From NCBI GenBank assembly GCA_017849555.1, contig JAFIGU010000062.1, forward strand, positions 118,956 through 182,955: a stretch of DNA of 64,000 nt. Direction: 5' to 3'. Position numbers and translations under genes: made by a program. How positions within the stretch are numbered: the first letter of the stretch is position 1; the number at the start of each line of letters is the position of its first letter. The notes beneath the pieces were generated by a model. The model was not told the origin of the DNA, ran no database searches, and saw only the letters and a list, made by a program, of their open reading frames with translations. Positions 40,201 through 60,181 of this stretch are shown in pieces. This DNA is from Sphingomonas sp. (GTDB lineage Bacteria; Pseudomonadota; Alphaproteobacteria; Sphingomonadales; Sphingomonadaceae).

Positions 40201-41994
40201 TCAGGATGCGAGCGCCAGCTCGGCGGCGCTCGCGGAATCGGCGATCAGGCGCCGGGTGTAGGCATGCGCTGGCCGGTCGAGCACCGCATCGGCCTCGCCT
40301 TGCTCGACGATGCGCCCGTCCTTGAGGACGATGATATGATCGGCGATGACGCGCACGACCGCGAGGTCGTGGGTCACGAACAAGATGGTCAGCCCTTCCG
40401 CCTTGAGCCGCATGAGGAGATCGAGCACCGCCGCCTGGACCGACACGTCGAGCGCGGACGTGATCTCGTCGCAGATCAGCACCTCGGGCTCGCACAGCAG
40501 CGCCCGCGCGATCGCGACCCGCTGACGCTCGCCGCCCGAAAGCTTCCCGGGCCGGCGATCGAGCACGGTCGCGGGCAGCGCGACGCGCGCGATCGCGGCC
40601 CGCGCGCGCTCGCGCGCTTCCTGGGCGCTGACGGGGAAAAAGTGCCGAACCACCGCGACGAGGTTATCCGCCACGTTTTGACGCGGGTTGAGCGCGCGGA
40701 ACGGATTCTGGAAGATATATTGGATACGGCGGCGCAGGTCCCTGGCGCGCGGGGATGATCCGATGCCGATCGGCGTGCCGCCGATGACGAGCTCGCCGGT
40801 GACGGCGGAACCCAGCCCGCCGAGTGCGCGGGCGAGCGTGGTCTTGCCCGACCCCGACTGGCCGACGATCGCGGTGCATTGCCGCGCCTGCACCGAAAAT
40901 CCGACGTCGAACAGCACTTGATTGGCGCCATAATAAGCGTCGATGCCCGCCGCGGTAAGCAGGGCAGGCCGATCGGCCGGCGCCGGCGTGGAAGGCTGGG
41001 CGGTGCGGCGCTCCAGCGGTGTCTGAAGCAGCGGGTGGTGGCATGCGACGAAGGTGCCCGATACGCCTTCCGTCAGCCTCGGCTCGGTCGCGCGGCAGAG
41101 GTCGGTGGCGCGGGCGCAGCGCGGCGCGAAGGCACAGCCGTCGGGACGCTGGCCGGGGGACGGGGCGTGGCCGGGAATATGGCTCAGCGCGTGTCGCCGG
41201 TCGACGCCGGGCATCGCGCCGAGCAGGCCGCGCGTATAGGGGTGCATCGGCTGGGCGAAGATCGCGCGGCTGTCGGCCACTTCCGCCAGCCGGCCGGCGT
41301 AGAGCACCGCGGCACGGTCGACGAGATCCTGCACGACGGAGAGGTCGTGCGAGATATAGACGGCCGCGACGCCCTGTTCCCGGCAATAACCGCGGATGAG
41401 ATCGAGCACCTGCGCCTGCGTGATCACGTCGAGCGCGGTGGTCGGCTCGTCGAGCACGATCACGCGCGGGCGCAGGATGAAGGCGAGCGCCAGAAGCACG
41501 CGCTGTTGCTGGCCGCCCGAAAGCTGGTGCGGATAGCGGCGCAGGAAGGCCGGATCGTTCGGAAGGCCGACGTCCGCCAACGCCGCCGCGACCGCGGCTG
41601 CGCGCGCCGCGGGCGGCAGCTCGCGCCGGTGAATGGCCAGCGTCTCCGACAATGAGCCGCCGATCCGTGCGAGGGGGTTGAGCGCCATCGCCGGGTCCTG
41701 CGGGACATGCGCGATCAGCCGTCCCCGCGCGGCGCGTCTTTCGCCGTCGGTGAGCGCGAGGATGTCCTGGCCGTCGACCAGCACCGATCCGCCCGTGATG
41801 CGCGTCCCGCGCCGGGCATAGCCGAGCAGCGCATTGGCCAGCGTCGTCTTGCCGCTGCCCGATTCGCCGACCAGCCCGAGGATCTCGCCGGGCGCGAGCG
41901 TCAGCGATATATCGGCGACGATCGGCGCGCCGCGCGGCGCCAGGTCGACGCGCAGGTCGCGCACGACCAGCGCCGGGGAGGCGGCGGGCATCAC
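40201..41994 (-). CDS. ABC importer ATPase with two fused NBDs (DppD-DppF type)
   Basis: A 597-residue protein with two complete ATPase domains. The first (about residues 8-260) has GESGSGKT, QLSGGQQQR and VIVLDEPTTALD. It is followed by the oligopeptide-family Cys segment (CAFAPRCARATDLC). The second (about 345-590) has GQSGSGKT, LSGGERQR and LICDEITSALD, ending with DLAVV and a His switch (THDLAV). It drives the peptide/nickel-class importer formed by the two permeases upstream. It overlaps the permease stop (GTGATG). Confidence 0.94.
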   Translation of the reverse strand: MMPAASPALVVRDLRVDLAPRGAPIVADISLTLAPGEILGLVGESGSGKTTLANALLGYARRGTRITGGSVLVDGQDILALTDGERRAARGRLIAHVPQDPAMALNPLARIGGSLSETLAIHRRELPPAARAAAVAAALADVGLPNDPAFLRRYPHQLSGGQQQRVLLALAFILRPRVIVLDEPTTALDVITQAQVLDLIRGYCREQGVAAVYISHDLSVVQDLVDRAAVLYAGRLAEVADSRAIFAQPMHPYTRGLLGAMPGVDRRHALSHIPGHAPSPGQRPDGCAFAPRCARATDLCRATEPRLTEGVSGTFVACHHPLLQTPLERRTAQPSTPAPADRPALLTAAGIDAYYGANQVLFDVGFSVQARQCTAIVGQSGSGKTTLARALGGLGSAVTGELVIGGTPIGIGSSPRARDLRRRIQYIFQNPFRALNPRQNVADNLVAVVRHFFPVSAQEARERARAAIARVALPATVLDRRPGKLSGGERQRVAIARALLCEPEVLICDEITSALDVSVQAAVLDLLMRLKAEGLTILFVTHDLAVVRVIADHIIVLKDGRIVEQGEADAVLDRPAHAYTRRLIADSASAAELALAS

Positions 41995-42833
41995 GCTTCC
42001 TCCTCGATGCGGGCGTTGATGCGGCCGATGCCCTCGGCGATGAGGTTGGTACCGAGCGCGAACAGCGCGATCATCGCCACCGGCGCCAGCACCGCCCAGG
42101 GCTGTACGAGCAGGCCGGCGCGATTCTCGTTGATCATCAGCCCCCAGTCGGCGGCCGGCGGCGCGACGCCATAGCCGAGGAAACTGAGGCCGGAGAGCAT
42201 CCCGATCGCCCAGGTCAGCATCACCCCGAACTGGACGAGCAGCGGCGTGATCATATTGGGCAGCACCTCGCGGAGCAGGATATGCGCGGAGGAGAAACCC
42301 ATCATGCGCGCGCTATCGACATATTCCTGCTCGACGATCCCCAGCGTCACGCCGCGCGACAGGCGAATGACGCCGGGCAGAAAGGCGATCGCGACGAGCA
42401 GCACGATGAGCCACGGCGCGCGCCCCAGCATCGAAACGACGAGGAGGACGAGGATGAGGTCGGGAAAGGCGAACAGCACGTCCGTCGACCAGACGACGCC
42501 CTGGTCCACCGCGCCCTTGCGATAGGCGCTCAACATCCCGATCGCCGCGCCGGCGGCGAGCGCGAGGATCGAGGCGGCGATGCTCATCCAGAATATCGAA
42601 AGGCCACCCGCCAGCAGCCGCGACCAGATGTCGCGACCGAGATAGTCATAGCCCAGCCAGGCGCCGGCCCCGGGCGGGCCGTAAGGGGCGCCGATCAGGG
42701 CATTGGGATCGTGCGGCGCGAGCCACGGCCCCGGCAATGCGATCGCGAGCACGGCCGCCAGCAGCACCGTCCCTGCGCGGATCTGGCGCTCGTTGCGCCA
42801 TCGGTTTGGCCTGCGCCGGCGGCTCGTCATCAT
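41991..42833 (-). CDS. ABC importer permease, DppC type
   Basis: A 280-residue inner-membrane permease of the peptide/nickel class. An N-terminal helix precedes LGYDYLGRDIWSRLLAG, followed by five further helices. The EAA loop is YVDSARMMGFSSAHILLREVLPN. It overlaps both neighbours (ATGA with dppB-type, GTGATG with the ATPase), which indicates a single translationally coupled operon. Confidence 0.94.
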   Translation of the reverse strand: MMTSRRRRPNRWRNERQIRAGTVLLAAVLAIALPGPWLAPHDPNALIGAPYGPPGAGAWLGYDYLGRDIWSRLLAGGLSIFWMSIAASILALAAGAAIGMLSAYRKGAVDQGVVWSTDVLFAFPDLILVLLVVSMLGRAPWLIVLLVAIAFLPGVIRLSRGVTLGIVEQEYVDSARMMGFSSAHILLREVLPNMITPLLVQFGVMLTWAIGMLSGLSFLGYGVAPPAADWGLMINENRAGLLVQPWAVLAPVAMIALFALGTNLIAEGIGRINARIEEEA

Positions 42834-43915
42834 GCGCCTCCCGCGCGCAGGCGCAGTCTTGCCCCGGTGCCGCTACGTAGCCGGGGCCGGGTCGTCGTGC
42901 GCAGCCGCGGCGTCAGCAGAACGGTCGCGAAGTCCGCGACGAGATTGATGAAGACGACGGCGATCGCGGTCAGCAGCGCGATCGCCTGGACGACCGGAAT
43001 GTCGCGTGTCTCGATCGCCGCGTTGAGCGCGCTGCCGATTCCCGGATAGCTGAACACCACCTCCACGATCAGCGCGCCGCCCAGCACCATCCGCGTCGCC
43101 ATCGCGAAGCCCTGGATGACCGGGGGGAGCGCATTGGGCACGGCATGGCGCCAGACGATGCGCCGTTCCGGCAGGCCCCGCAGCCGGGCGGCGGCGATAT
43201 AGTCCGCCTCGAGCGTCTCGGTCAGGCTCGCGCGGATCAGCCGGGTGAGGAAGGGCAGGACGAGCAGCAGCAGCGTCGTCGCCGGCAGCACCAGATAGAG
43301 CGGCTGGGCAAAGGGCGACAGCGACGGATCGAGGATCGATACGGCGGGCAGGATCGCCAGCGGACCGGTGGAGAAGAGCAGGATCAGCGCCACCGCGATC
43401 GCGAAGGGCGGCACCGCCTTGAACCCGATCAGCAGCGTCATCGCTGTGCGGTCGAACCGGCTGTCGCGCTTCACCGCCATCGCCACCCCGAGGAGGAAGG
43501 CGGCGGGCGCGGTGACGAGCAGGACGAAGATCATCAGCGCGATGCTGTTGCCGAGCCGCTCGATGACGAGGCCAAAGGCCGGCACGTTGGAATCGAGCGA
43601 ATTGCCGAAATCGCCGACCGCGACATGACGCAGCCAGTCGACATATTGCACCGCGATCGGCCGGTTGAGGCCGAGCTGCTCGCGCAGGATCGCAACCGCC
43701 TTGTCGGTCGCCTCGGGGCCGAGGATGACGCGTGCGGGATCGGAGGGGAGGGCGAGCGTCGCGAGATAGACGATCGCGCTCACCGCCAGCACCGTTCCGA
43801 ACCCCGCCAACAGGCGGCCGGCCAGCCACGGGAACCAGCCGGGGAGCGGCAGCCGTGCCGCCTGCCAGCGATCCACGATACCGACGGAGGGGGGCGCGCC
43901 CGCCTGTGTCGCCAT
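42830..43915 (-). CDS. ABC importer permease, DppB type
   Basis: A 361-residue inner-membrane permease. There is a first helix near residues 35-55, the family motif LGLNRPIAVQYVDWL in the periplasmic loop, and five more helices; the EAA loop reads YIAAARLRGLPERRIVWRHAVPNALPP. The basic C-terminal tail (PRLRSGTGARLRLRAGG) is longer than usual. The ATG at 43915 overlaps the stop of the binding-protein gene by one base. The long in-frame extension upstream runs through that gene and was rejected. Confidence 0.93.
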   Translation of the reverse strand: MATQAGAPPSVGIVDRWQAARLPLPGWFPWLAGRLLAGFGTVLAVSAIVYLATLALPSDPARVILGPEATDKAVAILREQLGLNRPIAVQYVDWLRHVAVGDFGNSLDSNVPAFGLVIERLGNSIALMIFVLLVTAPAAFLLGVAMAVKRDSRFDRTAMTLLIGFKAVPPFAIAVALILLFSTGPLAILPAVSILDPSLSPFAQPLYLVLPATTLLLLVLPFLTRLIRASLTETLEADYIAAARLRGLPERRIVWRHAVPNALPPVIQGFAMATRMVLGGALIVEVVFSYPGIGSALNAAIETRDIPVVQAIALLTAIAVVFINLVADFATVLLTPRLRTTTRPRLRSGTGARLRLRAGGA

Positions 43916-45468
43916 TATGCGTCCTTCCGCCAGAATTCGTCGACGCGCCAGCCGCCGAACTGGGTCTTTTCCGCCACCAGGCCGCCGATCGTGTCGCGCG
44001 CGGCGGCCCGGACATGGGTGAAGCCCCAGATCAGCAGGCTGCCCCGGTCGTGCTGGATATGCTGTGCCTCGTGCACCAGCGGTTTGCGCTTCTCGACGTC
44101 GGGCTGCGACAGCGCCGCGTTGATCAGCGCGCCAAACCTCGGATCGTGGAAGTTGGTGCGGTTGATGATCGCGTCGGGCGCGTCGTAATGGAGCGCGCTT
44201 GCCAGGAAGCCGCGCGCCGGAATCCCCCCGGTGGTGATCGCCCGGCCGGGCGGCGCAGGCACGGCGAAGCTTGCCGCATCGAGCCGCTCGACCTTGAGGT
44301 CCAGCCCCGATTTGCGCGCCTGTTCGGCAAAGACCAGCGCCGCGGGCGCGCCGGCGGCATTGGCGGTGATGGTGAGCGCGAGCGAGGGGTGACCGGCCTG
44401 CGCCAACAGCCATTTCGCTTTGTCCGGATCGTGCGCGCGCTGGGCGATATCGTGATCATAGGTCGGGTCGTGCGGCGAATAGAGATCGTTGCCCGTCGTC
44501 CCTTCGCCGTGCAGCGCGCGTTTCACCAGGTCGGGGCGGTCGGCGAGAAGCCGCAGCGCCTGTCGAACGCGCACGTCCGACAGCGCCGGGTGCAGCACGT
44601 TCATGTCGAGCGACTGGACATTATTGGTGGGTGAGGTGACGACCTTCACCCCCGGCGACCGGCGGAGCAGCTGCGCCTGCTCCACCGGCACGAGGTCGGC
44701 AAGATCGATCTGCCCGGACTGGAGCGCATAGGCGCGCGCCGTCTGGTCCTTGAACTCGATGATCTCGAGCTCGTCGACATAGGGCTGGCCGGGTTTGAAA
44801 TAATTCTCGAATCTGGTGAAGGTCGACCTCTGGCCCGGCTTGAAACTCTTCAGGCGGAACGGGCCGCAGCCCACGACATTGTGCACCGGGTCATAATCGG
44901 TCGGGACGATGCCGCCGAAACTGATCCAGGTATCCATCAGCGCGACCAGCCCCTTGCCGGGATGTGCGTGGAGCCGCACCGTCCGCGGGTCGAGCGTCTC
45001 GATCGTGTCGCGGTTCACCGCGGCGACCAGCCCCGCGTAGGGTGAGGCGAGCTGCGGATCGGAAATACGGCGGATGGAATAGACGAGGTCCTCGGCCGAG
45101 ACGGTCTTGCCGTGGTGGAATTCCAGTCCCTGGTGCAGGCGGATGACCACGCTCTGTCCGTCGGGCGCGATCTCGGTGCTTTCGGCGAGCGCGCCGGTGG
45201 GCTCGCATGCCTTGGTCCATTCCCACAATTTGGAATAGATCGCCCAGCCGCGGATGATGCCCGCGCCGACCGGCTTGTGCGCGTCGAGGTTGCCGGCCTG
45301 GGTCGGCTCGATCGTTCCGATGCGCAAACGGCCGCCGCGTCTGGGCTTGCCTTCGTCCACACCGGCCTGCGGCGCGCGCGCGCCGCCGCATCCGGCGAGC
45401 AGGCCGAGGCCGGTCATCCCGGCGGTGGCGAGGAGCCCGCGGCGATCGAGCAGCAGCGGGGCGATCAT
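43915..45468 (-). CDS. Solute-binding lipoprotein of peptide-class ABC importer (SBP_bac_5)
   Basis: A 517-residue periplasmic binding protein. The N-terminus has a twin-Arg (LDRRGLLATAG) and a lipobox (GLLAGC), then the DppA/OppA-type fold: GLEFHHGKTVSAEDLVYSIRRI, FGGIVPTDY and GCGPFRLKSF. Together with the LLM oxidoreductase that overlaps it by 4 bases (ATGA), it suggests import of an organosulfur or peptide-like ligand. A close paralogue without its own permeases is at 57534-59075. The ORF extends far upstream in frame, but the signal peptide fixes the start. Confidence 0.93.
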   Translation of the reverse strand: MIAPLLLDRRGLLATAGMTGLGLLAGCGGARAPQAGVDEGKPRRGGRLRIGTIEPTQAGNLDAHKPVGAGIIRGWAIYSKLWEWTKACEPTGALAESTEIAPDGQSVVIRLHQGLEFHHGKTVSAEDLVYSIRRISDPQLASPYAGLVAAVNRDTIETLDPRTVRLHAHPGKGLVALMDTWISFGGIVPTDYDPVHNVVGCGPFRLKSFKPGQRSTFTRFENYFKPGQPYVDELEIIEFKDQTARAYALQSGQIDLADLVPVEQAQLLRRSPGVKVVTSPTNNVQSLDMNVLHPALSDVRVRQALRLLADRPDLVKRALHGEGTTGNDLYSPHDPTYDHDIAQRAHDPDKAKWLLAQAGHPSLALTITANAAGAPAALVFAEQARKSGLDLKVERLDAASFAVPAPPGRAITTGGIPARGFLASALHYDAPDAIINRTNFHDPRFGALINAALSQPDVEKRKPLVHEAQHIQHDRGSLLIWGFTHVRAAARDTIGGLVAEKTQFGGWRVDEFWRKDA

Positions 45469-46712
45469 GCGATCAGCCGTTCCTTGGGCTCGGCGGCGAC
45501 GCGGCGGGTGACGGTCGCGGGCCGTTCGGCCGGGCGCGGCGCGCGCAGGCTGCCGATGTCGAACCCGTGATCGAGGTCGAGGAGCGGGAAGAGCAGATCG
45601 GCCACCCGATGCGCCTCGCCGACCAGCGGAAAACCGGAGAGGATGAAGGCGCTGGCGCCCTGTTCGGCATATTCCCTGAGCCGCGCGGCGACATTCTCGG
45701 CGCTGCCGACCAGCGTCGTGCCCGATGCGGGGCCCATGATGTCGAAGCCGAACCAGGCCGGCCCGACCCAGACGTTGGGATAGATTTCGAGATCGCGCGC
45801 GCCCGGCAGGCGGCCTTGCCGCACGGTCTCGATATTGCGCTGCACCTGCGGATCGGGGCTGCGATAGGTTTCGATCGTCTCGCCGGGCGGCAGCCGCATC
45901 TCGATCGAGCGGCGCGCATGCTCGACCGAGGATTTGGACAGCAGCCACTCGGCATGCGCCCAGGCTTCCTCTTCGGTTTCCCGCACGATGATCTGGAGCC
46001 GGGTGCCATATTCCAGCGTGCGGCCGATCTTCGCGGCTTCGGCGCCGACGCGGCGGAACTTGTCGCCGAGCAGCGGCGGCGTGTTGGCGAAGCTGAGATA
46101 GACGTCGAGCAGCTCGGCCGAATGCGCGACGCCCGGCGCCGAGGTCCCGGCGCCCCAGAGCGGCACGCCGCCCGGCTGGTGCGGCCCCGCCCATATCGAC
46201 ATCGGCGCCGCACCCTCGCCGCGCGGGGCGATCTTGACGAACGCGCCGTCATAGCCGCTGCGATCGCCCGCGTAGACGCGGCGGAAGGCGTCCCAATATT
46301 CGCGGCTGAATTCATAACGCTGGTCGTGCGGATAATGGACGCCCAGCGCCGCCAGCCCCGCATCATTGCCGTTCACGACATTGAAGATCAGGCGGCCGCC
46401 CGAAAAATGATCGAAGGTCTGCGCCCATTTCGCCAGCACGGCGGGCTGGATCTCGCCCGGATGCTGCGCGACGAGGAAACGCAGCCGCTCCGTCGCGCCG
46501 ATCATCGCCGGGGCGACGGCCAGCGTCTCATAGCTGCTGGTGCCCAGCAGCACCCCGTAGAAGCCCAGCCGGTCGGCAGTGACCGCGATCTGCTGGAGAT
46601 CGTCGAAACCGGTCTCCCAGCGGCCTTCGGGCGCCCAGGGATAAGGCCCGTCGGGCGCGGTGAGATACCAGAGGAGCTTGATCGGGGGCGAGGCAGGGGC
46701 AGGGCGCGACAT
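45465..46712 (-). CDS. SsuD-family FMN-dependent monooxygenase (LLM class), first of three
   Basis: A 415-residue luciferase-like monooxygenase. The SsuD signature runs LLWYLTAPDGPYPW, then LQQIAVTADRLGFYGVLLGT, FNVVNGNDAGLAALGV, LQIIVRETEEEAW and the C-terminal EYAEQGASAFILSGFP. SsuD enzymes use FMNH2 and O2 to split C-S bonds of sulfonates, releasing sulfite. It is the first gene after a perfect sigma-54 promoter and heads the importer operon. GAAAG precedes the ATG. It shares high similarity with the next gene upstream. Substrate not predictable. Confidence 0.92.
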   Translation of the reverse strand: MSRPAPASPPIKLLWYLTAPDGPYPWAPEGRWETGFDDLQQIAVTADRLGFYGVLLGTSSYETLAVAPAMIGATERLRFLVAQHPGEIQPAVLAKWAQTFDHFSGGRLIFNVVNGNDAGLAALGVHYPHDQRYEFSREYWDAFRRVYAGDRSGYDGAFVKIAPRGEGAAPMSIWAGPHQPGGVPLWGAGTSAPGVAHSAELLDVYLSFANTPPLLGDKFRRVGAEAAKIGRTLEYGTRLQIIVRETEEEAWAHAEWLLSKSSVEHARRSIEMRLPPGETIETYRSPDPQVQRNIETVRQGRLPGARDLEIYPNVWVGPAWFGFDIMGPASGTTLVGSAENVAARLREYAEQGASAFILSGFPLVGEAHRVADLLFPLLDLDHGFDIGSLRAPRPAERPATVTRRVAAEPKERLIA

Positions 46713-46762
46713 GAAGCTTTCTTTCCCGGGTGACGGTCTCGGCGGGTGCTTGGCGTCGCGGC

Positions 46763-46777
46763 GCAAGGGTTGTGCCA
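46763..46777 (-). promoter_or_regulatory. Sigma-54 promoter of monooxygenase-ABC importer operon
   Basis: Read on the minus strand: TGGCAC-AACCC-TTGC, an exact match to the core consensus. It lies in the 188-base gap between two monooxygenase genes; the start site is expected near 46751, giving a leader of about 40 bases before the ATG at 46712. Confidence 0.8.
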
Positions 46778-46900
46778 ATTGCCGCGATCCGCGAAAATCC
46801 GGGCATCCGCCGCCGGATCGCGCACGCCGGTGTTGAAAATTCACCTGGGGCTGCGGCCGCCAGATGATCGAATCGGTGCATCGGAAGGTCGCCAGCCGGA

Positions 46901-48097
46901 TCAGCGGCGACCGCCTGCGCGGCGCAAGCGACTGCCCGATACGGGGAGGTCGAAGCCATGATCGATATCGAGAAGCGGGAAGACAAGATCGGCGAAACGC
47001 TGCGCCTCGCTGATCAGCGGATAGCCCGACAGAATGAACGCGCCGGTTCCCTGCGCCGCATATTCGGTGAGCCGCGCGGCGACATTCTCCGCGCTGCCGA
47101 CCAATGCCGTCCCCGCCAGCGGCGATACGATGTTGAACCCGAACAGGCTCGGTCCGACCCAGACATTCGGGTAGATTTCGAGATCTCTGGCGCGCGGCAG
47201 ACGCCCCGCGCGCACCGCGGCGAGGTTCGCCTCCACCTGCGGATCGGGGCTATGATAGCTCTCGATCGTCTCGCCGCGCGGGATCTGCATCTCGATCGAC
47301 TGGCGCGCATAGTCGATATGCGTGTGGTCGAGCAGCCACTGGGCATAGTCCCACGCCTCTTCCTCGGTCTCGCGCACGATGATCTGGAGACGGGTGCCAT
47401 AGTCGAGCCTGCGCCCGATCCTGGCGGCTTCCGCGCCGACCGCGCGGAACTTGTCGCCGAGCCTGGGCGGGGTGTCGGCGAAGCTCAGATAGGTGTCGAG
47501 CAGCTTGACCGAATGCGCCACACCAGCGGGCGAGGTGCCCGCTCCCCATAACGGGACGCCGCCCGGCTGGACCGGCTGAAGCGGCGGTTCCTTCGCGCCG
47601 CGCCGGCCGAGACCATATTCGGCCGGCGCCGGCGCCAGCTTGATGAAGCGCCCGTCGTAACCGTCGCGCTGGCCGGTGTAGAAGCGGCGGAACGCGTCCC
47701 AATATTCGAAGCTGAAATCATATCGTTCGTCATGCTCGTAGTTCACGCCGAACGCGGGCAGGATCAGGTCGTTGCCGTTGACGACATTGTACAGCATCCG
47801 GCCACCCGACAGCCGGTCCTGCGTCAGCGCGATCTGCGCCAGCTTGACGGGGGAGAGGAGGCCCGGGTGGATCGCGGCGAGAAAGCGCATCCGCTTCGTC
47901 ACGCCGAACATCGCCGAGGAGACGGTGAGAACGTCGTCGGACAATCCCGTCCCCAGCAAGGCGCCATAATAGCCGAGCCGGTCGATCGTCGCCGCCAGTT
48001 GCTGGAGGTGGCGGAAATCGGTGTTCCAACGGCCCTCGGGCTCCCACGGAAAGGGGCCGTCGGGGGCGGTGAGATACCACAGGATCTTGATGCTCAT
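46901..48097 (-). CDS. SsuD-family FMN-dependent monooxygenase, second of three
   Basis: A 398-residue paralogue of the gene at 45465-46712 (ILWYLTAPDGPFPWEPEGRW; YNVVNGNDLILPAFGV; RLQIIVRETEEEAWDYAQWLL; AAQGTGAFILSGYPLI). A strong AAGGAGG precedes the ATG at 48097. It follows the TonB receptor by 26 bases and should share its transcript. It has a short insertion (PAPAEYGLGRRGAKEPP, about residues 178-194) near the active-site mouth that its paralogue lacks, so substrate range may differ. Confidence 0.92.
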   Translation of the reverse strand: MSIKILWYLTAPDGPFPWEPEGRWNTDFRHLQQLAATIDRLGYYGALLGTGLSDDVLTVSSAMFGVTKRMRFLAAIHPGLLSPVKLAQIALTQDRLSGGRMLYNVVNGNDLILPAFGVNYEHDERYDFSFEYWDAFRRFYTGQRDGYDGRFIKLAPAPAEYGLGRRGAKEPPLQPVQPGGVPLWGAGTSPAGVAHSVKLLDTYLSFADTPPRLGDKFRAVGAEAARIGRRLDYGTRLQIIVRETEEEAWDYAQWLLDHTHIDYARQSIEMQIPRGETIESYHSPDPQVEANLAAVRAGRLPRARDLEIYPNVWVGPSLFGFNIVSPLAGTALVGSAENVAARLTEYAAQGTGAFILSGYPLISEAQRFADLVFPLLDIDHGFDLPVSGSRLRRAGGRR

Positions 48098-50733: not shown

Positions 50734-50824
50734 GAATATTTCCCCCTGTGGTTTCCCCGTCCGTCCAGATGTCATGTGCTCTGGTGCCGGAACGATCCGA
50801 GATTATCGCTTCGAGATATTTTAA

Positions 50825-50839: not shown

Positions 50840-50891
50840 ATCGCGGATTCTGAGATATTACAGGGATCTCGAAGAATATATCCGTAGAGAT

Positions 50892-52224: not shown

Positions 52225-53433
52225 TCAGTTGCCGCCGGACAGCCCGGCGACGAGCGGAATGGGTTGCAGGTCGTTCGCGACGCTGGGCTGCGCACTGGCG
52301 CGGAAACGCGGGAGGAGATGTTCGCCGAGCCGGTAGATCTCCTCGAGATGGGGATAGCCGTTGATGAAGAACTTGCTGATCCCGAGCGCGGCGAACTCAC
52401 GCACGCGTGCCTCGACCGCGGCATAGCTGCCGACGAAGGCGAAGCCCGGCGGAATGCCGACATAGCTGAACCCCGCCCAGAGATTGGGGGCGATGAACAG
52501 ATCCTCGTAACCGTTGATCGCGCGACCCAGATAGCGGCGGTAGCGCGACTGATGCGTCTGCGACATCTGGCCGGTGCGCTCGGCGGCGATCTGGACGGTG
52601 CCCGCCGCGACGCCGCTGTCGAACACGCGTTTCGCCTCGGCGAAAGCCTCTTCGTCGGTTTCGCGCAGGATCACGTCCACCGAGAGGCCGAAGCGGATGG
52701 TGTCGGCCCGACCATAAACCTCGGCGCGGCGGCGGACGTCGGCGATCGTTTCCGCGACCACCGCCGGGTCCTCCGCCAGCATCAGATAATAATCGGCATG
52801 TTTTGCAGCGAGATCGCGTGCCGCGTCGGACGATCCGGCGGTGCAGATCACCGGCAGTTGCGCCTTGCGCAGCGCGCCGCGCAGCCCCATGCCGTTGGCC
52901 TCGTAATAATGCCCCTTATAGTGGAAGCTCTCGCTCGCCCAGAAGCCCTTGACGACGTCCATGAACTCGCTCGCGCGCGCATAGCGTTCGTCGTGGGGCA
53001 GCGCATCGCCGAGCGCTTTCTGCATCGCGTCCGACCCGCCCTGGATGAGGTTCCAGATCAGCCGCCCGCCGCTCGACCGCTGGAAGGATGCCGCCATCTG
53101 CGTCGCCTGCCACGGGCTGAAATGAAACGGGTGGAAGGCGGCGACATAGCGTAGCCTTTTGGTTTCGCGCGCCAGGACGGAGGCGACGATCCACGGCTCG
53201 TCGCCGAACGGCGCGTTGACCATCAGCGCGCCCTTGAAGCCGTTGATCTCCGCCGCGCGGGCGACCTGCGAGAGATAGTCGATATAGGTGAAGTCATCGC
53301 CGATATCGAAGTGCGACACGGCGCCCGTGCTCTCGCTCGGCGAGCGGTTCCAGTCGCCGCGGTTGCGGTTGTCGCCCGGGATGAATTGCGTTTCGCCATG
53401 CAGCGGCAGGCGGGAATAGAATTCTATGGTCAT
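52225..53433 (-). CDS. SsuD-family FMN-dependent monooxygenase, third of three
   Basis: A 402-residue luciferase-like monooxygenase from a different SsuD branch (FYSRLPLHGETQF; GGRLIWNLIQGGSDAMQKALG; VICTAGSSDAARDLAAKHADYYL; DVILRETDEEAFAEAKRVF; LFIAPNLWAGFSYVG; ALGISKFFINGYPHLEEIYRLGEHLLPRF). GAGGG precedes the ATG at 53433; an in-frame extension to 53493 crosses the promoter. It heads the LLM-sfnB transcript behind a sigma-54 motif. No flavin reductase is encoded in the operon, so reduced FMN must come from elsewhere. Confidence 0.92.
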   Translation of the reverse strand: MTIEFYSRLPLHGETQFIPGDNRNRGDWNRSPSESTGAVSHFDIGDDFTYIDYLSQVARAAEINGFKGALMVNAPFGDEPWIVASVLARETKRLRYVAAFHPFHFSPWQATQMAASFQRSSGGRLIWNLIQGGSDAMQKALGDALPHDERYARASEFMDVVKGFWASESFHYKGHYYEANGMGLRGALRKAQLPVICTAGSSDAARDLAAKHADYYLMLAEDPAVVAETIADVRRRAEVYGRADTIRFGLSVDVILRETDEEAFAEAKRVFDSGVAAGTVQIAAERTGQMSQTHQSRYRRYLGRAINGYEDLFIAPNLWAGFSYVGIPPGFAFVGSYAAVEARVREFAALGISKFFINGYPHLEEIYRLGEHLLPRFRASAQPSVANDLQPIPLVAGLSGGN

Positions 53434-53477
53434 CGCGCAGCCCTCGCTTCGCACGTAGATCGTCGCGCCGGTGACAA

Positions 53478-53492
53478 GCATGATCCATGCCA
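53478..53492 (-). promoter_or_regulatory. Candidate sigma-54 promoter of LLM3-sfnB operon
   Basis: Minus strand TGGCAT-GGATC-ATGC followed by T, with exact GG/GC spacing and two departures from consensus. The predicted start near 53466 gives a leader of about 33 bases before the ATG at 53433. Confidence 0.6.
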
Positions 53493-53658
53493 TCGGCAGA
53501 ACTGCGGGGTTTCTCAGGGCAGCTCACCGGCGCGCTGCGGCGATCGGTGCAGGGGGTGGCGGGATATCAACAATCTTCAGGACTGATATGCGCTCGCTCG
53601 ATTGAAGAAGCTCTATCCAAAAGCACGCGATTATTGGCATTATTGGCCCCCCGGCCTT

Positions 53659-53698: not shown

Positions 53699-53704
53699 GC
53701 CAAA

Positions 53705-53719
53705 TGGCACGCTTCTTGA
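53705..53719 (+). promoter_or_regulatory. Weak sigma-54-like promoter before plus-strand receptor
   Basis: TGGCAC-GCTTC-TTGA. The -24 half is perfect, but the invariant C of the -12 half is A. Position is ideal (expected start near 53731, leader about 27 bases). Without the GC dinucleotide, function is uncertain. Confidence 0.35.
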
Positions 53720-53728
53720 TTGACATCG

Positions 53729-53758: not shown

Positions 53759-56014
53759 ATGAAGTCCTATCCGGGGGGACATACTCTTGTCGCGTGCCTG
53801 TTACTGACCGCTCCCGCTGCCGCTTATGCCGAGGATGCGGCGGACAAAGGCAGCAACGATATCGTCGTCACCGCGCTGAAGCGGGAAACGCGGCTGCAGG
53901 ACACCCCTGCCGCCGTCACCTCGCTCTCGGGCGACACCTTGCGCGCGGCCTCGATCGATTCCGCCAACGACCTGGTCCGCGCGGTGCCGAGCCTGACGAT
54001 CACCGATTCAGGGCCGGGCCAGCGCCGCATCACGTTGCGCGGCATTCGTAGCGCGGGCGATGCGCAGGTCGGCATCTATTATGACGAGACGGCGGTGGCC
54101 GGCCCGCCGGGCACGACCAGCGATGCGGGCGGAAGCCAGTCCGATTTCAAGCTGTTCGATCTGGAGCGGGTCGAGGTCCTGCGCGGGCCGCAAGGCACGT
54201 TGTACGGCGCGGGCGCGGTGGGCGGCGCGATCCGCCTCGTCACCCGCAAGCCGGACTTCACGTTCAGCGGCAAGCTCGACGCCAGCGTGACGAGCACGCG
54301 TAGCGGGGGCGAAGGCTATCAGCTCAACGCGGCGCTCAACCTGCCGGTCGTCAACGACGTGCTCGCGGTGCGCGGGGTCTATTTCCGGCGGCAGGACGAC
54401 GGTTGGGTCGACAATCCCGGGCTGCACCTCACCGGCATCAATGCCGAGCGCACCGACGGCGGGCGCATCCTCGTCCGTTTCGTCCCGGCCTCGTGGCTGA
54501 CGATCGACGGCGCGGCGCATTTCCTGTTCACCGAGGGCGGCGCCAGCACATGGTCGCCGAGCGCGGGGGCCTATAATGCCGTCAATGCGGCGCAGGTGCC
54601 GTATAGCGACAAGCAGCGCATCTACAGCCTGAGCGCTAAGGCGGAGCTGGGCTTCGCCGATCTGTTGGCGACCGCGGGCTATCAGGATCGCGACACCCTG
54701 GTCACGCGCGATCCGACGCCCTTGTTCAGGAGCTACAAGAATTCCGCGGCGCAGTGCAGGACGCATTTCTCCGCCGCCACCTGCGCCACGCCGGCGGGGA
54801 TCGCCAGTTTCAATGCCTATATCGACGGCATTACCCCGGCCATCTATTATCAGCCGCAGTCGCTCAAGGACTGGACGGGCGAGATCCGTCTGCAATCGAG
54901 CAAGCCCGGTTTCCTGCAATGGACGATCGGCGGCTTTTACGAAGACCGCACCGCCCACATCCTGTCCGAAGGCCGGCGGGTCAATGCCGCCGACGGGTCG
55001 CAGATCGCGGGTGCGCCGCCGCTGCTGCAACGCCATATCGTCGATTATCTGACGCAGAAGGCGGTGTTCGGCGAGCTTTCGGTGACGCCGGTGGAAAGCC
55101 TCACCGTCACGGGCGGGCTGCGCTATTATAATTACGACAAGACCGTGGGCGGCGACACGGTGATCGGCCTCGACATCCTGCGCACCGCGGCCACGCCCTT
55201 CGCTTATTACAAGTCGAACAACAACGGGTGGCTGTACAAGGCCAACGTCAGCTGGAAGCCGCTGCAAAATCTTCTGCTCTACGGCCAGGTGGCGACCGGT
55301 TACCGTCCGGGCGGGGTCAACCAGGTGCTCGGTCTTGCGCAGGCGCTGGCCTATGCGCCCGACAAGACCACGACCTATGAAGGCGGCCTGAAGACGACGC
55401 TGGCGGACGGCGCGTTCACCTTCAACCTGTCGGGCTACATCACCGACTGGAAGGACATGCAGGTCAGCATCAACAGCGGCAGCTTCCTCTATCTGGGCAA
55501 TGCGGGCGCGGCGCGTATCCGCGGGATCGAGGCGGAGACGGTGATCAGCCCGATCGCGGGTCTCACGTTCAACATCAACTTCGTGCTGACCGATGCGAAG
55601 CTGACGCAGGATCAGGTGCCGGACAATGTCACCCCCAGCGCCACCACCGCCCGCGCCGGCGACAAGATTCCGTTCATCGCGCCGCAGACGGTCGGGGTTG
55701 CGGGCCAATATGACTGGGCGATCGGCGAAAGCGGCAAGTTGCGCGCGCTGCTGCGCGGCGATCTCAGCTATGTCGGCAAGAGTTATGCGGACTTCCGCCC
55801 CAATGCGATCGGTTATCGTCAGGTCGGCGACTATACGCTCGCGAACCTGCGCGCCGGCATCCACACCGAACGCTATGGCGTCTACGTCTTCGTCAACAAT
55901 CTGTTCGACACGATCGCGCGGGTGGCGGCCGGCAATACTTTAGGCGGCACGACCGAGACGGTGACGACCGTTCCGCCCCGCACGATCGGCATCAACCTTA
56001 CCGGATCCTTCTGA
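53759..56014 (+). CDS. TonB-dependent receptor of the plus-strand sulfur block
   Basis: A 751-residue outer-membrane importer. The signal peptide ends AAAYA (about residue 24). TonB box DIVVTALKRE (about 34-43) is followed by the plug domain (TPAAVTSLSGDTLRAA; ITLRGIRSAGDAQVGIYYDETAV; LRGPQGTLYGAGAVGGAIRLVT) and a barrel ending NLTGSF. It resembles the FecA/Pupa-like family common in sphingomonads. It starts an operon with an M20 amidohydrolase and a binding lipoprotein, giving a complete capture and hydrolysis path. Confidence 0.93.
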   Translation: MKSYPGGHTLVACLLLTAPAAAYAEDAADKGSNDIVVTALKRETRLQDTPAAVTSLSGDTLRAASIDSANDLVRAVPSLTITDSGPGQRRITLRGIRSAGDAQVGIYYDETAVAGPPGTTSDAGGSQSDFKLFDLERVEVLRGPQGTLYGAGAVGGAIRLVTRKPDFTFSGKLDASVTSTRSGGEGYQLNAALNLPVVNDVLAVRGVYFRRQDDGWVDNPGLHLTGINAERTDGGRILVRFVPASWLTIDGAAHFLFTEGGASTWSPSAGAYNAVNAAQVPYSDKQRIYSLSAKAELGFADLLATAGYQDRDTLVTRDPTPLFRSYKNSAAQCRTHFSAATCATPAGIASFNAYIDGITPAIYYQPQSLKDWTGEIRLQSSKPGFLQWTIGGFYEDRTAHILSEGRRVNAADGSQIAGAPPLLQRHIVDYLTQKAVFGELSVTPVESLTVTGGLRYYNYDKTVGGDTVIGLDILRTAATPFAYYKSNNNGWLYKANVSWKPLQNLLLYGQVATGYRPGGVNQVLGLAQALAYAPDKTTTYEGGLKTTLADGAFTFNLSGYITDWKDMQVSINSGSFLYLGNAGAARIRGIEAETVISPIAGLTFNINFVLTDAKLTQDQVPDNVTPSATTARAGDKIPFIAPQTVGVAGQYDWAIGESGKLRALLRGDLSYVGKSYADFRPNAIGYRQVGDYTLANLRAGIHTERYGVYVFVNNLFDTIARVAAGNTLGGTTETVTTVPPRTIGINLTGSF

Positions 56015-56044
56015 GCCATCCGCGCGATGAAGAGGAAGAATTGC

Positions 56045-57505
56045 ATGAAGGCACGATATTTTCCGCGCGGGCTCGTCGCGGTCCTCGCCATTGGCGCGCC
56101 GGCGGCACAGGCGCACCCGCTGTCCGACGCGGATGTCTCGGCGATCACCGGGCAGGTCGAGGCGCGCAAACCGCAACTCGCGGCCAATGCGCGCAAGATC
56201 TGGGAATGGGCGGAGGTCGGGTTCCGCGAAGAGCGCAGCACCGCGCTGCTCCAGAGCCAGCTCAAGGCCGCGGGGTTCCGCGTCGAGACCGGCATTTCCG
56301 GCATCCCCACCGCTTTCGTCGCGACCTATGGCGATGGCGGCCCGGTGATCGCCTATCTCGCCGAATATGATGCCTTGCCCGGTCTTTCGCAGGTCGACGC
56401 GCCGCAACAGGCGACGCGCGGCGGCATCGCGGGTCACGCCTGCGGCCATAATCTGCTCGGCGCGGCATCGGTCGAGGCGGCGATCTCGCTCGCCAAATGG
56501 CTGAAGCAGACCGGCACGCCGGGAACGATCCGCGTCTATGGCAGCCCGGCGGAAGAGGGCGGTTCCTCCAAGATCTATTTCGTGCGCGACGGTCTGTTCA
56601 AGGATGTCGATGCGGTGCTGAGCTGGCATCCGTCGAGCCAGAACGGCGCTGCGCAGGGCACGATGCTCGCGGTGATCAGCGTCAAGTTCCGCTTCGAGGG
56701 CATCGCGGCGCATGCCGCCGCGGCGCCGGAACGCGGGCGATCCGCGCTCGACGGCGTGGAGATCCAGAATGTCGCGGTCAATTATCTGCGCGAGCATGTC
56801 CCGCAGGAAACGCGCATCCACTATACGATTACCGACGGCGGCGACCAGCCGAACATCGTGCCTGCGCACGCCGAGAGCTTCTATTATATCCGCCATTATG
56901 ACGCGGACGTGGTGCGCGATGTTTTCGACCGCGTGAAAAAGGCCGGCGAGGCGGCGGCACTCGCGACCGGCACCAAATTCTCCTATGAGATCGTCAGCGG
57001 CAGCTTCGGGGTTCTGCCCAACGACACGCTGGGCCGCGTCGTCGACGCCAATCTGCGCCGCGTTGGCGGGTATCGTTATACGCCGGAGGAGGCCCGCTTC
57101 GCCGAGGCCATCTCCAGGACATTGCCGGCCGGGGCGGGGAGGGCCGATCCGTCCGCGATCGGCGCCTATGATTTCGGTCGCCGGACCTCCGCGTCATCCG
57201 ATGTGGGCGACATCAGCTGGGTAACGCCGACCTCGAGCCTCGGCACCGCGACCTGGGTGCCGGGCACCGTCCCGCATAGCTGGCAGGCGGCTGCGGCGAG
57301 CGGCACGTCGATCGGGGTCGACGGTGCGCTGATCGCCGCCAAGACGCTCGCTTTGTCCGGGGCGGAGCTGCTGGTGAACCCCGACACGTTGAGGGCCGCG
57401 AAGGAGGAGCTCCACAAGAGCCAGGGCGCGGGCTTCCACTATCAGCCGCTCCTGGGCGATCGCAAACCGGCGCTCGATTATACCCAGGCGCCCGCGCGCC
57501 GCTGA
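56045..57505 (+). CDS. Exported M20-family amidohydrolase (AbgB-like), second module
   Basis: A 486-residue protein: signal peptide MKARYFPRGLVAVLAIGAPAAQA (cleavage near 23), then a complete M20D catalytic domain with YLAEYDALPG, metal loop GHACGHNLLG (Cys and His intact) and acid pair SPAEEGGSSK, plus the lid domain (about 205-330). ATG 56045 is preferred to 56027 because AGAGGAAG lies before it. It follows the receptor by 30 bases. Family members cut N-acyl or amide bonds; here the substrate is probably an N-acylated or amide organosulfur or amino acid compound, which is inference. Confidence 0.9.
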   Translation: MKARYFPRGLVAVLAIGAPAAQAHPLSDADVSAITGQVEARKPQLAANARKIWEWAEVGFREERSTALLQSQLKAAGFRVETGISGIPTAFVATYGDGGPVIAYLAEYDALPGLSQVDAPQQATRGGIAGHACGHNLLGAASVEAAISLAKWLKQTGTPGTIRVYGSPAEEGGSSKIYFVRDGLFKDVDAVLSWHPSSQNGAAQGTMLAVISVKFRFEGIAAHAAAAPERGRSALDGVEIQNVAVNYLREHVPQETRIHYTITDGGDQPNIVPAHAESFYYIRHYDADVVRDVFDRVKKAGEAAALATGTKFSYEIVSGSFGVLPNDTLGRVVDANLRRVGGYRYTPEEARFAEAISRTLPAGAGRADPSAIGAYDFGRRTSASSDVGDISWVTPTSSLGTATWVPGTVPHSWQAAAASGTSIGVDGALIAAKTLALSGAELLVNPDTLRAAKEELHKSQGAGFHYQPLLGDRKPALDYTQAPARR

Positions 57506-57533
57506 CGCAATTTCGATCGAAGGAGGAGGCGAT

Positions 57534-59075
57534 ATGGAGCAGTTCGTTTCGCGTCGGGCATTGTTGGGCGGGCTGACGGCGGCCGGCGGCGCGCTGATGC
57601 TGCCGGGCTGCGGCCCGTCGGCGGGCGGCGGCGCGGGCAATGCGCCACGCCGCGGCGGCACATTGCGCCTCGGCATCCTCGAGCCGGATCGGACGGGCGA
57701 TCTCGACGTCCACAAACCGATCAGCATGGGCAGCGTCATTCGCGGCTTCGCGATGTACAGCAAGCTCTGGGAATGGGACGATGACATGCTCCCGGTCCTC
57801 GATCTCGCCGAGACGAGCGAAGTCACGCCCGACGCCAGCGCGTGGACCGTGCGGCTGAAGAAGGGGCTGGAATTCCACCACGGCAAGTCGATCACCGCGG
57901 ATGATGTGATCTTCTCGCTGCGGCGACTGACCGACCCGCGGCTCGCCTCGCCGTTCGGCGCGCTGATCAACCCGGTCGACCGCGATTCGATTCGCAAGCT
58001 CGACGAGCGCACGGTGCGGATCGCGATGAAGCCGGGGCTGCCCTTCGTGGCATTGCCCGAGACGTGGGTGAATTTCGGCGGCATCGTGCCGACCGATTAC
58101 GATCCCGTCCACAATCCGGTCGGCGCGGGACCGTTCAAGCTCAAGGATTTCACCCCCGGCCAGCGCGCGCGCTTCGTCCGGTTCGAAAATTACCACAAGC
58201 CCGGCCGTCCCTATCCCGACGCGCTGGAGATCATCGAGTTCAAGGACCAGTTCGCGCGCGTCTCCGCGCTGCTCGCGGGGCAGATCGACCTCGCCAACAT
58301 GATCCTGCCCGAACATGCCGGGTTGCTGCGCGGCAAGGCGGGGGCGCAGGTGATCGTGTCGCCGTCCAACACCTGGCAGTCGTTCGACATGAATGTCGCG
58401 AGCGGCCCCTTCGCCGACGCGCGGGTGCGCGAGGCGTTCCGGCTGCTCGTCGACCGCGATGATCTGGTGAAGCGCGCGCTGCAAGGGCACGGCCGCGCAG
58501 CCAACGATCTTTATGCGCCGCAGGACCCGACCTTCGACCGGGCGATCGCCAGGCGCCCCTATGATCCGGACAAGGCGCGCAGCCTGCTTGCCGCCGCCGG
58601 CGCATCCAATCTTTCGGTGGAGCTCGTTACGACCGCCGCCGCCGCCAGCCCGGCGCTGGTCTTTACCGAACAGGCCAAGCGCGTCGGTGTCGATATCCGG
58701 GTGCGCAAGGTCGATTTCTCCGTCTTCAACGGCAAGTCGCGCCCGGATTGGGCGCTCAGCACCGGCGGCACGCTCGGCACGCCGTGGCTCGCCACCGCGC
58801 TCCACATCGACGCGCCCACCGCGGTCAACAACAAGACGCACTTCCGCGATCCCGAATTCTCCAGCCTGTTCCAGCGCGCGATGGGCGAGCCCGATCTCGA
58901 ACGGCGCAGCGCGCTGGTCCATCAGGCGCAGCGCATCCAGTTCGACCGCGGCGGCCTTCTCATCTGGGGTTTCACCGACGTGCTCGACGGCGCGGCGGCT
59001 CGGGTCGGCGGGATCAAACCCGAACGCTCGCATTTTCCCACCTGGCGGTTCGACCGCATGTGGGTGAAGGCCTGA
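57534..59075 (+). CDS. Solute-binding lipoprotein, paralogue of the ABC importer protein
   Basis: A 513-residue SBP_bac_5 protein. A twin-Arg start (VSRRALLGGL) and a lipobox (LMLPGC) precede the mature fold. Shared blocks with the protein at 43915-45468 include YSKLWEW, LEFHHGKS, NFGGIVPTDYDPVHN and GPFKLKDFTPGQR. AGGAGGAGGC lies before the ATG. No permease accompanies it, so it probably docks on the importer encoded at 40.2-43.9 kb, widening its ligand range. Confidence 0.93.
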   Translation: MEQFVSRRALLGGLTAAGGALMLPGCGPSAGGGAGNAPRRGGTLRLGILEPDRTGDLDVHKPISMGSVIRGFAMYSKLWEWDDDMLPVLDLAETSEVTPDASAWTVRLKKGLEFHHGKSITADDVIFSLRRLTDPRLASPFGALINPVDRDSIRKLDERTVRIAMKPGLPFVALPETWVNFGGIVPTDYDPVHNPVGAGPFKLKDFTPGQRARFVRFENYHKPGRPYPDALEIIEFKDQFARVSALLAGQIDLANMILPEHAGLLRGKAGAQVIVSPSNTWQSFDMNVASGPFADARVREAFRLLVDRDDLVKRALQGHGRAANDLYAPQDPTFDRAIARRPYDPDKARSLLAAAGASNLSVELVTTAAAASPALVFTEQAKRVGVDIRVRKVDFSVFNGKSRPDWALSTGGTLGTPWLATALHIDAPTAVNNKTHFRDPEFSSLFQRAMGEPDLERRSALVHQAQRIQFDRGGLLIWGFTDVLDGAAARVGGIKPERSHFPTWRFDRMWVKA

Positions 59076-59211: not shown

Positions 59212-59230
59212 GTAACCCCGAGGAGTTCCC

Positions 59231-60181
59231 ATGCCTGCCGCTTTGGACGGATCCATCACGATCCCGCGAGATCTCGGAATCGTGATCGACGAGCTGAAAC
59301 AGGCGCGCGCCGACTGGCGGATCGCGCATGACCGCGTGAGCGAGCGCGTCCTCGCTTTCCCCTCTCGCCAGTCGCTCAAAAGGATTTGCCGTGAACTCGG
59401 CACGGCCTTGTTCCCGCTCCGGCTCGGGCCACCCGAGCTCAATTCGTCCAACGAGAATCGCTGGATCGAAGCGACGCTCGAATCGACCCTGTCGCAACTG
59501 ACCGCGCAGGTCGCGCTCGAGGTTCGCCTCGCGCGGCCGGATATCAATAGTATCGAAGAGGCGCGCGTCGCGGACAATATCGTCGGCGCGTTCGCGGCGA
59601 GCCTGGCGGACATCCGGCGCCTTCTCGATGGCGATGTCGAAGCCGGTTACCGCAACGATCCGGCCGCCCGCAGCGTCGATGAAGTCCTGCTTTCCTATCC
59701 GTCGCTGACCGCGATCCTCCATTACCGGCTCGCCCACCGCCTGTACGAGCTCGGCGCGCCGCTGATTGCGCGGATCATCGGCGAGGTCGCGCATGCGGAA
59801 ACCGGGATCGATATTCATCCCGGCGCGACGATCGGGGCGCAATTGTTCATCGATCATGGCACCGGGATCGTGATCGGAGAGACCTGCGTGATCGGCGATC
59901 GGGTCCGGCTCTATCAGGGCGTGACGCTGGGCGGCGAGCCGTTGCCCGCCGGCGCCGCGCACAGCAATGCCGATCCTCGCGCCCGCCGGCATCCCTTCAT
60001 CGCGGATGATGTGGTGATCTTCGCCGGCGCGGTGCTGCTCGGGCCGATCACGATCGGCGCGCGGTCACGCATCGGGGGCAATCTGTGGCTCCGCACCGAT
60101 GTGCCGCCCGACAGCATCGTCGAACTCGAAACGCCGCGGATCAGGCCGGCGGGGACCAGCGCATCCCGAGAGGAGTTTTAG
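59231..60181 (+). CDS. epsC: Serine O-acetyltransferase (EpsC/CysE type)
   Basis: A 316-residue enzyme making O-acetylserine from serine and acetyl-CoA, the carbon acceptor for sulfide in cysteine synthesis. An N-terminal helical domain (about residues 1-170, with LLSYPSLTAILHYRLAH) is followed by the left-handed hexapeptide beta-helix (DIHPGATIGAQLFIDHGTG; GVTLGG) with catalytic His and Asp. The C-terminus ends near STSREEF-like residues instead of the usual Ile that binds cysteine synthase. AGGAG precedes the ATG. It closes the plus-strand sulfur block. Confidence 0.93.
   Translation: MPAALDGSITIPRDLGIVIDELKQARADWRIAHDRVSERVLAFPSRQSLKRICRELGTALFPLRLGPPELNSSNENRWIEATLESTLSQLTAQVALEVRLARPDINSIEEARVADNIVGAFAASLADIRRLLDGDVEAGYRNDPAARSVDEVLLSYPSLTAILHYRLAHRLYELGAPLIARIIGEVAHAETGIDIHPGATIGAQLFIDHGTGIVIGETCVIGDRVRLYQGVTLGGEPLPAGAAHSNADPRARRHPFIADDVVIFAGAVLLGPITIGARSRIGGNLWLRTDVPPDSIVELETPRIRPAGTSASREEF

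Follow-up and report, generated by a model that had tools for sequence, protein, structure and literature searches.

A conserved flavin monooxygenase and importer island in a Sphingomonas genome, a candidate system for organosulfur acquisition

Described sulfur-scavenging systems and the Sphingomonas island

Several described bacterial systems for obtaining sulfur from organic compounds resemble the gene island analyzed here, which lies in a 64,000-nucleotide stretch (the window, C3:118956-182955) of the 4.87 Mb draft genome of a Sphingomonas sp. and encodes flavin monooxygenases, transport proteins and associated enzymes. The Pseudomonas sfn/msu set (SfnG, MsuC, MsuD, MsuE, SfnR and sfnAB) is alike in combining a group D S-oxygenase with group C enzymes that cleave C-S bonds and, in the accessible portion of the source, in having a separate flavin reductase and sigma-54 control, for which the island offers candidate sites only (PMC8234197). 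Assimilation of dimethyl sulfide (DMS) in Acinetobacter baylyi ADP1, which involves Dms1-3, MsuD, MsuC and SsuD, is alike in taking a thioether to a sulfone with a group D enzyme before cleavage by a luciferase-like monooxygenase (LLM), and it uses a shared reductase (PMC13352529, accessible portion). The salvage of S-alkylcysteines by CmoO and CmoJ shares flavin-dependent S-oxidation, a subsequent C-S cleavage and an amide step (PMC10863075, likewise in part). The ssuEADCB layout is related through its monooxygenase, as the three LLMs of the island are 34-38% identical to SsuD of A. baylyi and P. putida.

The island also departs from each of these systems. Unlike sfn/msu, it adds TonB-dependent receptors, an Opp-class importer with two binding proteins, an M20 amidohydrolase and epsC, and its LLMs score below both the SfnG and the SsuD equivalog cut-offs. 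Unlike in ssuEADCB, the sulfonate motif is mostly lost, an Opp-class importer replaces SsuABC and the island has no ssuE; the original prediction for this DNA, that importer, receptors and amidohydrolase set the gene content apart from the ssu layout, is supported. Unlike the A. baylyi DMS pathway, the island encodes a dedicated route of uptake across two membranes, and unlike the proteins of CmoO/CmoJ salvage its M20 looks secreted. LLM1-3 score far better with SsuD and MsuD than with YtnJ, which we take to be CmoJ. The island is a variant of sfn/msu/ssu scavenging, set apart by its LLM clade and by an additional uptake route across two membranes, and no description of its gene set was recognised in the open-access literature, judged mostly by titles and abstract openings.

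Our data indicate that the island looks like a real, conserved system. We put at about one half the probability that it is a sulfur-starvation island under the control of sigma-54 and an SfnR-like activator, which obtains sulfur from an organosulfur compound actively carried across both membranes. The general sulfur reading is well supported, and the sequences suggest that the natural substrate is probably something other than a sulfonate. A bolder and less probable reading is that LLM1 and LLM2 form a C-S cleaving clade, recognised in none of the papers covered, that arose from sulfonate enzymes, lost the sulfonate pocket and became linked to an Opp-class importer of its own, and that they act on a large, uncharged organosulfur natural product, such as the sulfone or sulfoxide of an amide-linked thioether, within a complete outer-membrane-to-cytosol route controlled by sigma-54. 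The annotation as alkanesulfonate monooxygenase is often given to SsuD-like genes. Most of the residues behind this activity are lost in the LLM1/LLM2 clade, which retains a linked importer in most loci examined and was seen in Pseudomonas and Acinetobacter, in several betaproteobacteria and a few alphaproteobacteria, and in two actinobacterial records. If our reading is true, both the annotation of the clade and the place given to it in the sulfur cycle are likely to be mistaken. The receptors and binding proteins offer a handle on the substrate, and the gene set is a testable regulon.

Linkage of the LLM1/LLM2 clade to an importer

A scan of a genome collection with LLM1 and LLM2 found at least 596 stretches, at least 425 of them encoding relatives, and the best 80 hits, mostly from Pseudomonas and Acinetobacter, were kept as 78 loci. 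Members of the LLM1/LLM2 clade, defined by a threshold of 54% identity, were encoded in 63 of the 78. By record title these comprise 37 Pseudomonas, nine Acinetobacter, five alphaproteobacterial and 12 other loci (two actinobacterial); the sample is heavy in Pseudomonas, and its loci are not independent events. Homologues of island genes were counted at 40% identity or more (45% for nbd). All four importer genes were found in 56 of the 63 clade loci (binding protein 60, permB 59, permC 57, nbd 56), and the binding protein gene directly follows the LLM gene in 55. At the same thresholds, neither the full importer nor homologues of the other island genes occurred in any of the 15 loci with remoter LLMs. 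In one of these, L104, every importer component has a weak homologue (28-44% identity). The linkage extends over alpha-, beta- and gammaproteobacteria and also occurs in Streptosporangium, and A. baylyi itself carries an LLM1 orthologue beside an importer and an sfnB (L047). Of the other genes, sfnB homologues were found in 51 clade loci, abc1 or abc2 in 40 and tbdr1 in 32; within the fetched flanks, tbdr2 and m20 each occurred in two loci and epsC in none.

A counterpart of the island is a region of about 50 kb in Novosphingobium resinovorum (~422-474 kb of its contig), in which llm genes, importer, receptors, the m20-tbdr2 pair and epsC stand together. Its LLMs are 81% (llm1), 71% (llm3) and 65% (llm2-like) identical to those of the island, and it also holds two sfnB-like genes, abc2-abc1, two sbp2-like genes, permB, nbd and permC (locus L083). 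At its end, m20 (76%) and tbdr2 (78%) diverge from epsC (52-53%), and NMT1-like binding proteins, class II aldolases and sigma-54 activators are interspersed. In Sphingobium quisquiliarum, sfnB-llm3 is divergent from tbdr2-m20-tbdr1-llm2, and no importer was seen in the stretch examined. Because of the arrangements in these two species, the receptor-amidohydrolase pair and epsC are tied to the LLMs. The thought that epsC is present by coincidence, given its count of 0/63, was dropped, as its homologue adjoins tbdr2-m20 in N. resinovorum. The original proposal of one coherent organosulfur-acquisition system is upheld by the importer linkage in 56/63 loci, the N. resinovorum region and the candidate sigma-54 promoters described below.

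Some observations on linkage weigh against our reading. Seven clade loci have no full importer; three of them (L038, L039, L091) are truncated where a flank or contig stops, and the remaining four (L043, L059, L080, L096) show no truncation close to the gap in what was inspected. In addition, the class II aldolase that is associated with LLM1 in 50/63 loci was not found in the host, in a search that had no positive control. Clusters of open reading frames related to this aldolase and to an NMT1-like binding protein occurred in 50 of the 63 loci each, by automatic clustering that includes some spurious frames. The two genes precede llm1 in a Pseudomonas locus (L064:7910-9940), in Acinetobacter (L047:8177-9962) and in N. 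resinovorum (L188:8452-10325); the NMT1-like Pfam scores are weak in the latter two.

Sulfonate motif, S-oxygenation and substrate

MsuD contacts its sulfonate through W195, R225, R296 and an RGGA loop, and its R225A, R296A and W195A variants gave no measurable sulfite, according to the accessible part of the source (PMC8234197). In an alignment of 168 LLM sequences, both SsuD controls (A. baylyi and P. putida) keep W-R-R at these positions. LLM1 has F-R-G, LLM2 F-R-S and LLM3 L-S-G, so that LLM1 and LLM2 each keep one of the three contacts and LLM3 none. SfnG, a sulfone enzyme, is also without the motif (N-N-N). Among the 69 LLM1/LLM2-clade sequences from the loci, all have F at 195 and 67 have no R at 296; in each of the 11 LLM3-clade sequences, position 225 is S, position 296 is G and position 195 is L or R. 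In family scoring, against the SsuD equivalog TIGR03565 (cut-off 518.2 bits) LLM1-3 reach 249.2, 242.6 and 249.9 bits, compared with 633.2 and 638.1 bits for the A. baylyi and P. putida controls, and against the SfnG model TIGR04021 (cut-off 382.95) they reach 92.3, 87.5 and 146.9 bits.

A tree of 81 LLM representatives, made by a quick search and with several long branches flagged, recovered the LLM1/LLM2 clade in 27 rows with a Shimodaira-Hasegawa-like approximate likelihood ratio test (SH-aLRT) support of 96. LLM1 (13 rows, support 99) and LLM2 (11 rows, 98) are sister groups (90), and their split is, on this tree, an old duplication. W-R-R is kept in SsuD, in an MsuD-like P. putida protein and in other outer neighbors, and the sister group of the clade, seven rows with Y/F-L-G/D, is without it; the loss of the motif therefore looks derived, yet older than the importer-linked clade.

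Sulfonate chemistry is doubtful for LLM1-3 on these comparisons, and the earlier suggestion of desulfonation by SsuD chemistry is weakened, since the binding residues proven in MsuD are mostly gone; in its favor, LLM1 and LLM2 still have R225. Several points count against a lost sulfonate function. Overall, LLM1 is closer to MsuD and SsuD than to SfnG, R225 is retained in 69/69 clade sequences, and an R aligns at 296 in two of the 69 (Pseudomonas L077 and L079). Loss of the motif also extends beyond the importer-linked clade, as the seven-row sister group indicates: among 18 more distant rows labelled LLM1/2, W-R-R is kept in eight and not in 10, the sister group included. An AlphaFold model of LLM1, built with eight sequences and of moderate confidence (mean pLDDT 70.4), has the MsuD/SsuD fold. 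The alignment has gaps at the replaced loop, and the model, in which this decisive part is of low confidence, is uninformative on the pocket.

The strongest competitor is that the LLMs act as sulfonate monooxygenases on a bulky sulfonate that is bound through another set of residues. SsuD and MsuD are the nearest characterised relatives in both sequence and fold, R225 is retained in LLM1 and LLM2, and LLMs with an intact motif occur in the wider group around the clade. We nevertheless consider it unlikely, as W195 and R296, which are essential in MsuD, are absent and LLM3 is without all three residues. W-R-R is kept in two other host LLMs (C3:9 kb and C94) and missing from one more (C3:8 kb), so that sulfonates seem to be handled by other enzymes of the host.

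The SfnB-like protein scores 395.7 bits against TIGR04022, below the cut-off of 430.9 and with this family by far its best; its nearest solved relatives include DszC and methanesulfinate monooxygenase. The original labels 'SsuD-like' and 'SfnB-type' consequently hold as family labels and fall short of the curated cut-offs (242.6-249.9 versus 518.2 and 395.7 versus 430.9 bits). In A. baylyi, the accessible part of the published work states that the group D enzymes Dms1-3 take DMS and dimethyl sulfoxide to dimethyl sulfone, that DMS oxidation was undetectable with every group C enzyme tested and that a single reductase supplied all oxygenases of the pathway (PMC13352529). By analogy with its DszC and MsuC relatives, the SfnB-like protein is probably of the same kind as Dms1-3 and may oxidise a thioether or sulfoxide. 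S-oxygenation followed by C-S cleavage of a group resembling a sulfone or sulfoxide is the best-fitting order, because the island has a group D enzyme together with three group C enzymes that are without a full sulfonate pocket. These enzymes need a flavin reductase, none of which was found among the assigned island genes in family profile searches of the island. The host genome has seven profile matches to FMN_red and none to Flavin_Reduct, and reduced flavin must come from elsewhere in the genome.

We hypothesize that the island is activated by sigma-54, probably together with an SfnR-like activator encoded elsewhere. The TonB receptors would carry the organosulfur compound into the periplasm, where M20 may release an amide-linked part. 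The two binding proteins, whose genes are both present in the island, would feed one Opp-class importer. In the cytosol, the SfnB-like group D enzyme would oxygenate the sulfur to a sulfoxide or sulfone, and LLM1/LLM2 with LLM3 would then oxygenate the adjacent carbon and break the C-S bonds of a group other than a simple sulfonate, a target disfavored because most of the sulfonate motif is lost; an uncharged S-oxide is favored. Sulfur would be released as sulfite or sulfide, and EpsC would provide the O-acetylserine acceptor.

The importer is assigned to the Opp/Dpp class by its family-5 solute-binding protein, two binding-protein-dependent permeases and two ATPase domains, and the nearest solved relatives of sbp1 include AgaA and peptide/nickel binders. 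The M20 has a signal-peptide-like N-terminus, judged by eye, and its nearest solved relatives are HmrA and Xaa-Arg dipeptidase. EpsC scores 168.7 bits against the CysE model, below the cut-off of 210.65, and is above the cut-off of NF041874. That the substrate is large and amide-containing and is trimmed in the periplasm, as first proposed, is plausible from the TonB receptors and the secreted-looking M20. A review of sphingomonad TonB transporters, in its accessible part, ties some receptors to sulfonate contexts or sulfanilic acid (PMC7142613).

A further alternative, slightly less probable than a bulky sulfonate, is that two independent modules are neighbors here, an LLM/importer module for sulfur and a receptor-amidohydrolase module for peptides. 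It agrees with the homologues of m20 and tbdr2 in only 2/63 loci within the fetched flanks, and with a second M20-receptor pair that has no LLM beside it (29549-34210 of the window). It is at odds with the position of tbdr2, with m20, next to llm genes in three cases, L036, S. quisquiliarum and N. resinovorum, the last of these also with epsC. The second pair is likewise secreted-looking in its M20, which is 34% identical to that of the island, and it lies near an Lrp/AsnC regulator (34529-35023) with no adjoining sulfur gene recognised. Many TonB receptors take up chelates, and the family-5 relatives of solved structure bind peptides, nickel, heme or opine-type ligands, so that a non-sulfur substrate such as a metal chelate or a peptide-like compound oxidised by the LLMs can be conceived, but it is improbable, as the SfnB-type enzyme, epsC and putative sigma-54 control with its SfnR-like candidate all point to sulfur.

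Candidate promoters, gene layout and distribution

Candidate sigma-54 elements were found before four island genes (Table 1). When the invariant GG/GC core is required, the window has four sites, two of which lie before llm1 and tbdr1, whereas four wrong spacings gave 16 sites in the window and none before island genes. At least two of four sites would fall before six island gene starts with a frequency of 0.0003 by random placement, for gene heads and a distance that were chosen post hoc. Correctly spaced sites in the five alphaproteobacterial loci number 21, of which 13 stand before labelled operon heads, versus 0 of 12 wrongly spaced ones, and across all 63 loci the counts are 63/237 versus 9/331; most of the correctly spaced sites across the 63 loci are not before labelled heads. 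Sigma-54 control is made less certain by the window-wide count, in which the pattern is not enriched (six found versus 4.8 expected, with 39 of 100 shuffles reaching six), and by two of the four island candidates being weak or imperfect; at the three-mismatch threshold of the llm3 candidate the window holds 22 sites. Upstream of 23 sigma-54 candidates, no shared activator-site word was found beyond short GC-rich words.

A possible activator, related (59%) to the sigma-54 activator found in locus L036, is encoded at C3:1394-2419, within the second organosulfur cluster of the host described below. The match contains one TGA, and the listing of open reading frames places a stop codon at the same end. 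Its best named profiles are generic NifA/NtrC-type ones, below cut-off; we infer that it is SfnR-like.

Table 1. Positions of the island genes and candidate regulatory elements in the window
Feature	Position	Strand	Description
nbd	40201-41994	-	Opp/Dpp-class importer ATP-binding subunit, two ABC domains; NCBIfam/Pfam
permC	41991-42833	-	importer permease; PF00528
permB	42830-43915	-	importer permease; PF00528 + PF19300
sbp1	43915-45468	-	family-5 solute-binding protein; PF00496; lipobox-like LLAGC
llm1	45465-46712	-	SsuD-related group C flavin monooxygenase; F-R-G replaces W-R-R
candidate sigma-54 -24/-12 element	46762-46778	-	50 nt before llm1; TTGGCACAACCCTTGCG, 2 mismatches
llm2	46901-48097	-	llm1 paralogue (67%); motif F-R-S
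tbdr1	48124-50733	-	TonB-dependent receptor; PF07715 plug
candidate sigma-54 -24/-12 element	50824-50840	-	91 nt before tbdr1; TTGGCACGGTTCATGCT, 1 mismatch
perfect 17-nt inverted repeat, 4-nt loop	50892-50929		between sfnB and tbdr1 promoter; possible terminator or activator site
sfnB-like gene	50940-52208	-	group D flavin monooxygenase, DszC/MsuC kind
llm3	52225-53433	-	group C flavin monooxygenase, motif L-S-G
weak candidate sigma-54 element	53477-53493	-	44 nt before llm3; ATGGCATGGATCATGCT, 3 mismatches
candidate sigma-54 element, imperfect -12 half	53704-53720	+	39 nt before tbdr2; ATGGCACGCTTCTTGAT, 2 mismatches
tbdr2	53759-56014	+	TonB-dependent receptor; PF00593 + PF07715
M20 amidohydrolase (m20)	56027-57505	+	TIGR01891 243.3 bits, cut-off 153.75
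sbp2	57534-59075	+	family-5 solute-binding protein; lipobox-like LPGC
epsC	59231-60181	+	serine O-acetyltransferase; NF041874 170.7 bits, cut-off 150
abc1	60205-62028	-	ABC half-exporter; PF00664/PF00005
abc2	62030-63832	-	ABC half-exporter; PF00664/PF00005

On the minus strand the genes are read in the order llm3, sfnB, tbdr1, llm2, llm1, sbp1, permB, permC and nbd, and the block tbdr2, m20, sbp2 and epsC diverges from them on the plus strand; the positions of these 13 genes are given with trimmed starts. Open frames and family matches confirmed the inventory first given for the island: three SsuD-family LLM monooxygenases, an SfnB-type enzyme, M20 and EpsC, and also one peptide-class ATP-binding cassette (ABC) importer, two paralogous binding lipoproteins and two TonB receptors. 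The proteins of llm1 and llm2 are 67% identical and those of sbp1 and sbp2 54%. The abc1 and abc2 genes lie just past position 60181, where the original prediction ended, and were added by synteny; 168 bases separate the start codon of abc2 from the contig end.

The system is rare near the host. A trait of the whole genus or family is not supported, as the 60 relatives searched (36 congeners and 24 others from the same order) gave no LLM1 match above 37% identity. Among 396 other genomes drawn from the family, for which at most four first-look candidates were scored per genome, LLM1 matched at E <= 1e-60 in two, at 66% and 45% identity, and the 45% match falls outside the LLM1/LLM2 clade. The system is also present in N. 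resinovorum and N. clariflavum, which are absent among the matches of this draw. The search of sphingomonad genomes for the gene set that was first suggested thus recovered the system, and did so rarely. This rarity near the host, together with its spread elsewhere, suggests horizontal acquisition or repeated loss. A plasmid-borne origin is likewise unsupported: matches at E <= 1e-5 occur in 656 of 72,556 plasmid records, and none of them reaches 60% identity. The three plasmid contexts inspected (H3, H24, H26) have other arrangements, and in H24 an unrelated-looking binding protein-permease-permease-ATPase set is about 3 kb away.

The host genome has other loci of similar kind. A second organosulfur cluster at C3:0.1-12.8 kb (L126) comprises a sigma-54 activator, SsuA-like binding proteins, an SsuC-like permease, an ABC ATPase, two LLMs (one with W-R-R) and a TonB receptor; it has four candidate sigma-54 sites, compared with one for each of two wrong spacings. 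On contig C94 (~69-76 kb; L127:7805-14367), a W-R-R LLM adjoins an aldo-keto reductase, an alpha-glucosidase and a TonB receptor. The alpha-glucosidase scores 878.2 bits (cut-off 553) with model NF007746, which we take to be YihQ, and the locus looks like one for a sulfoquinovose monooxygenase together with a dedicated receptor. Within the window and outside the island, a sigma-54 candidate with the GG/GC core and one mismatch (27967-27983) lies 127 nt before fdhD, near genes for a sigma-54 response regulator (26339-27736) and a sensor kinase (24277-26091). At 35830-38181 a DJ-1/PfpI-domain gene is followed by one for a 2-oxoglutarate-Fe dioxygenase (PF10014; the HilB model scores far below its cut-off).

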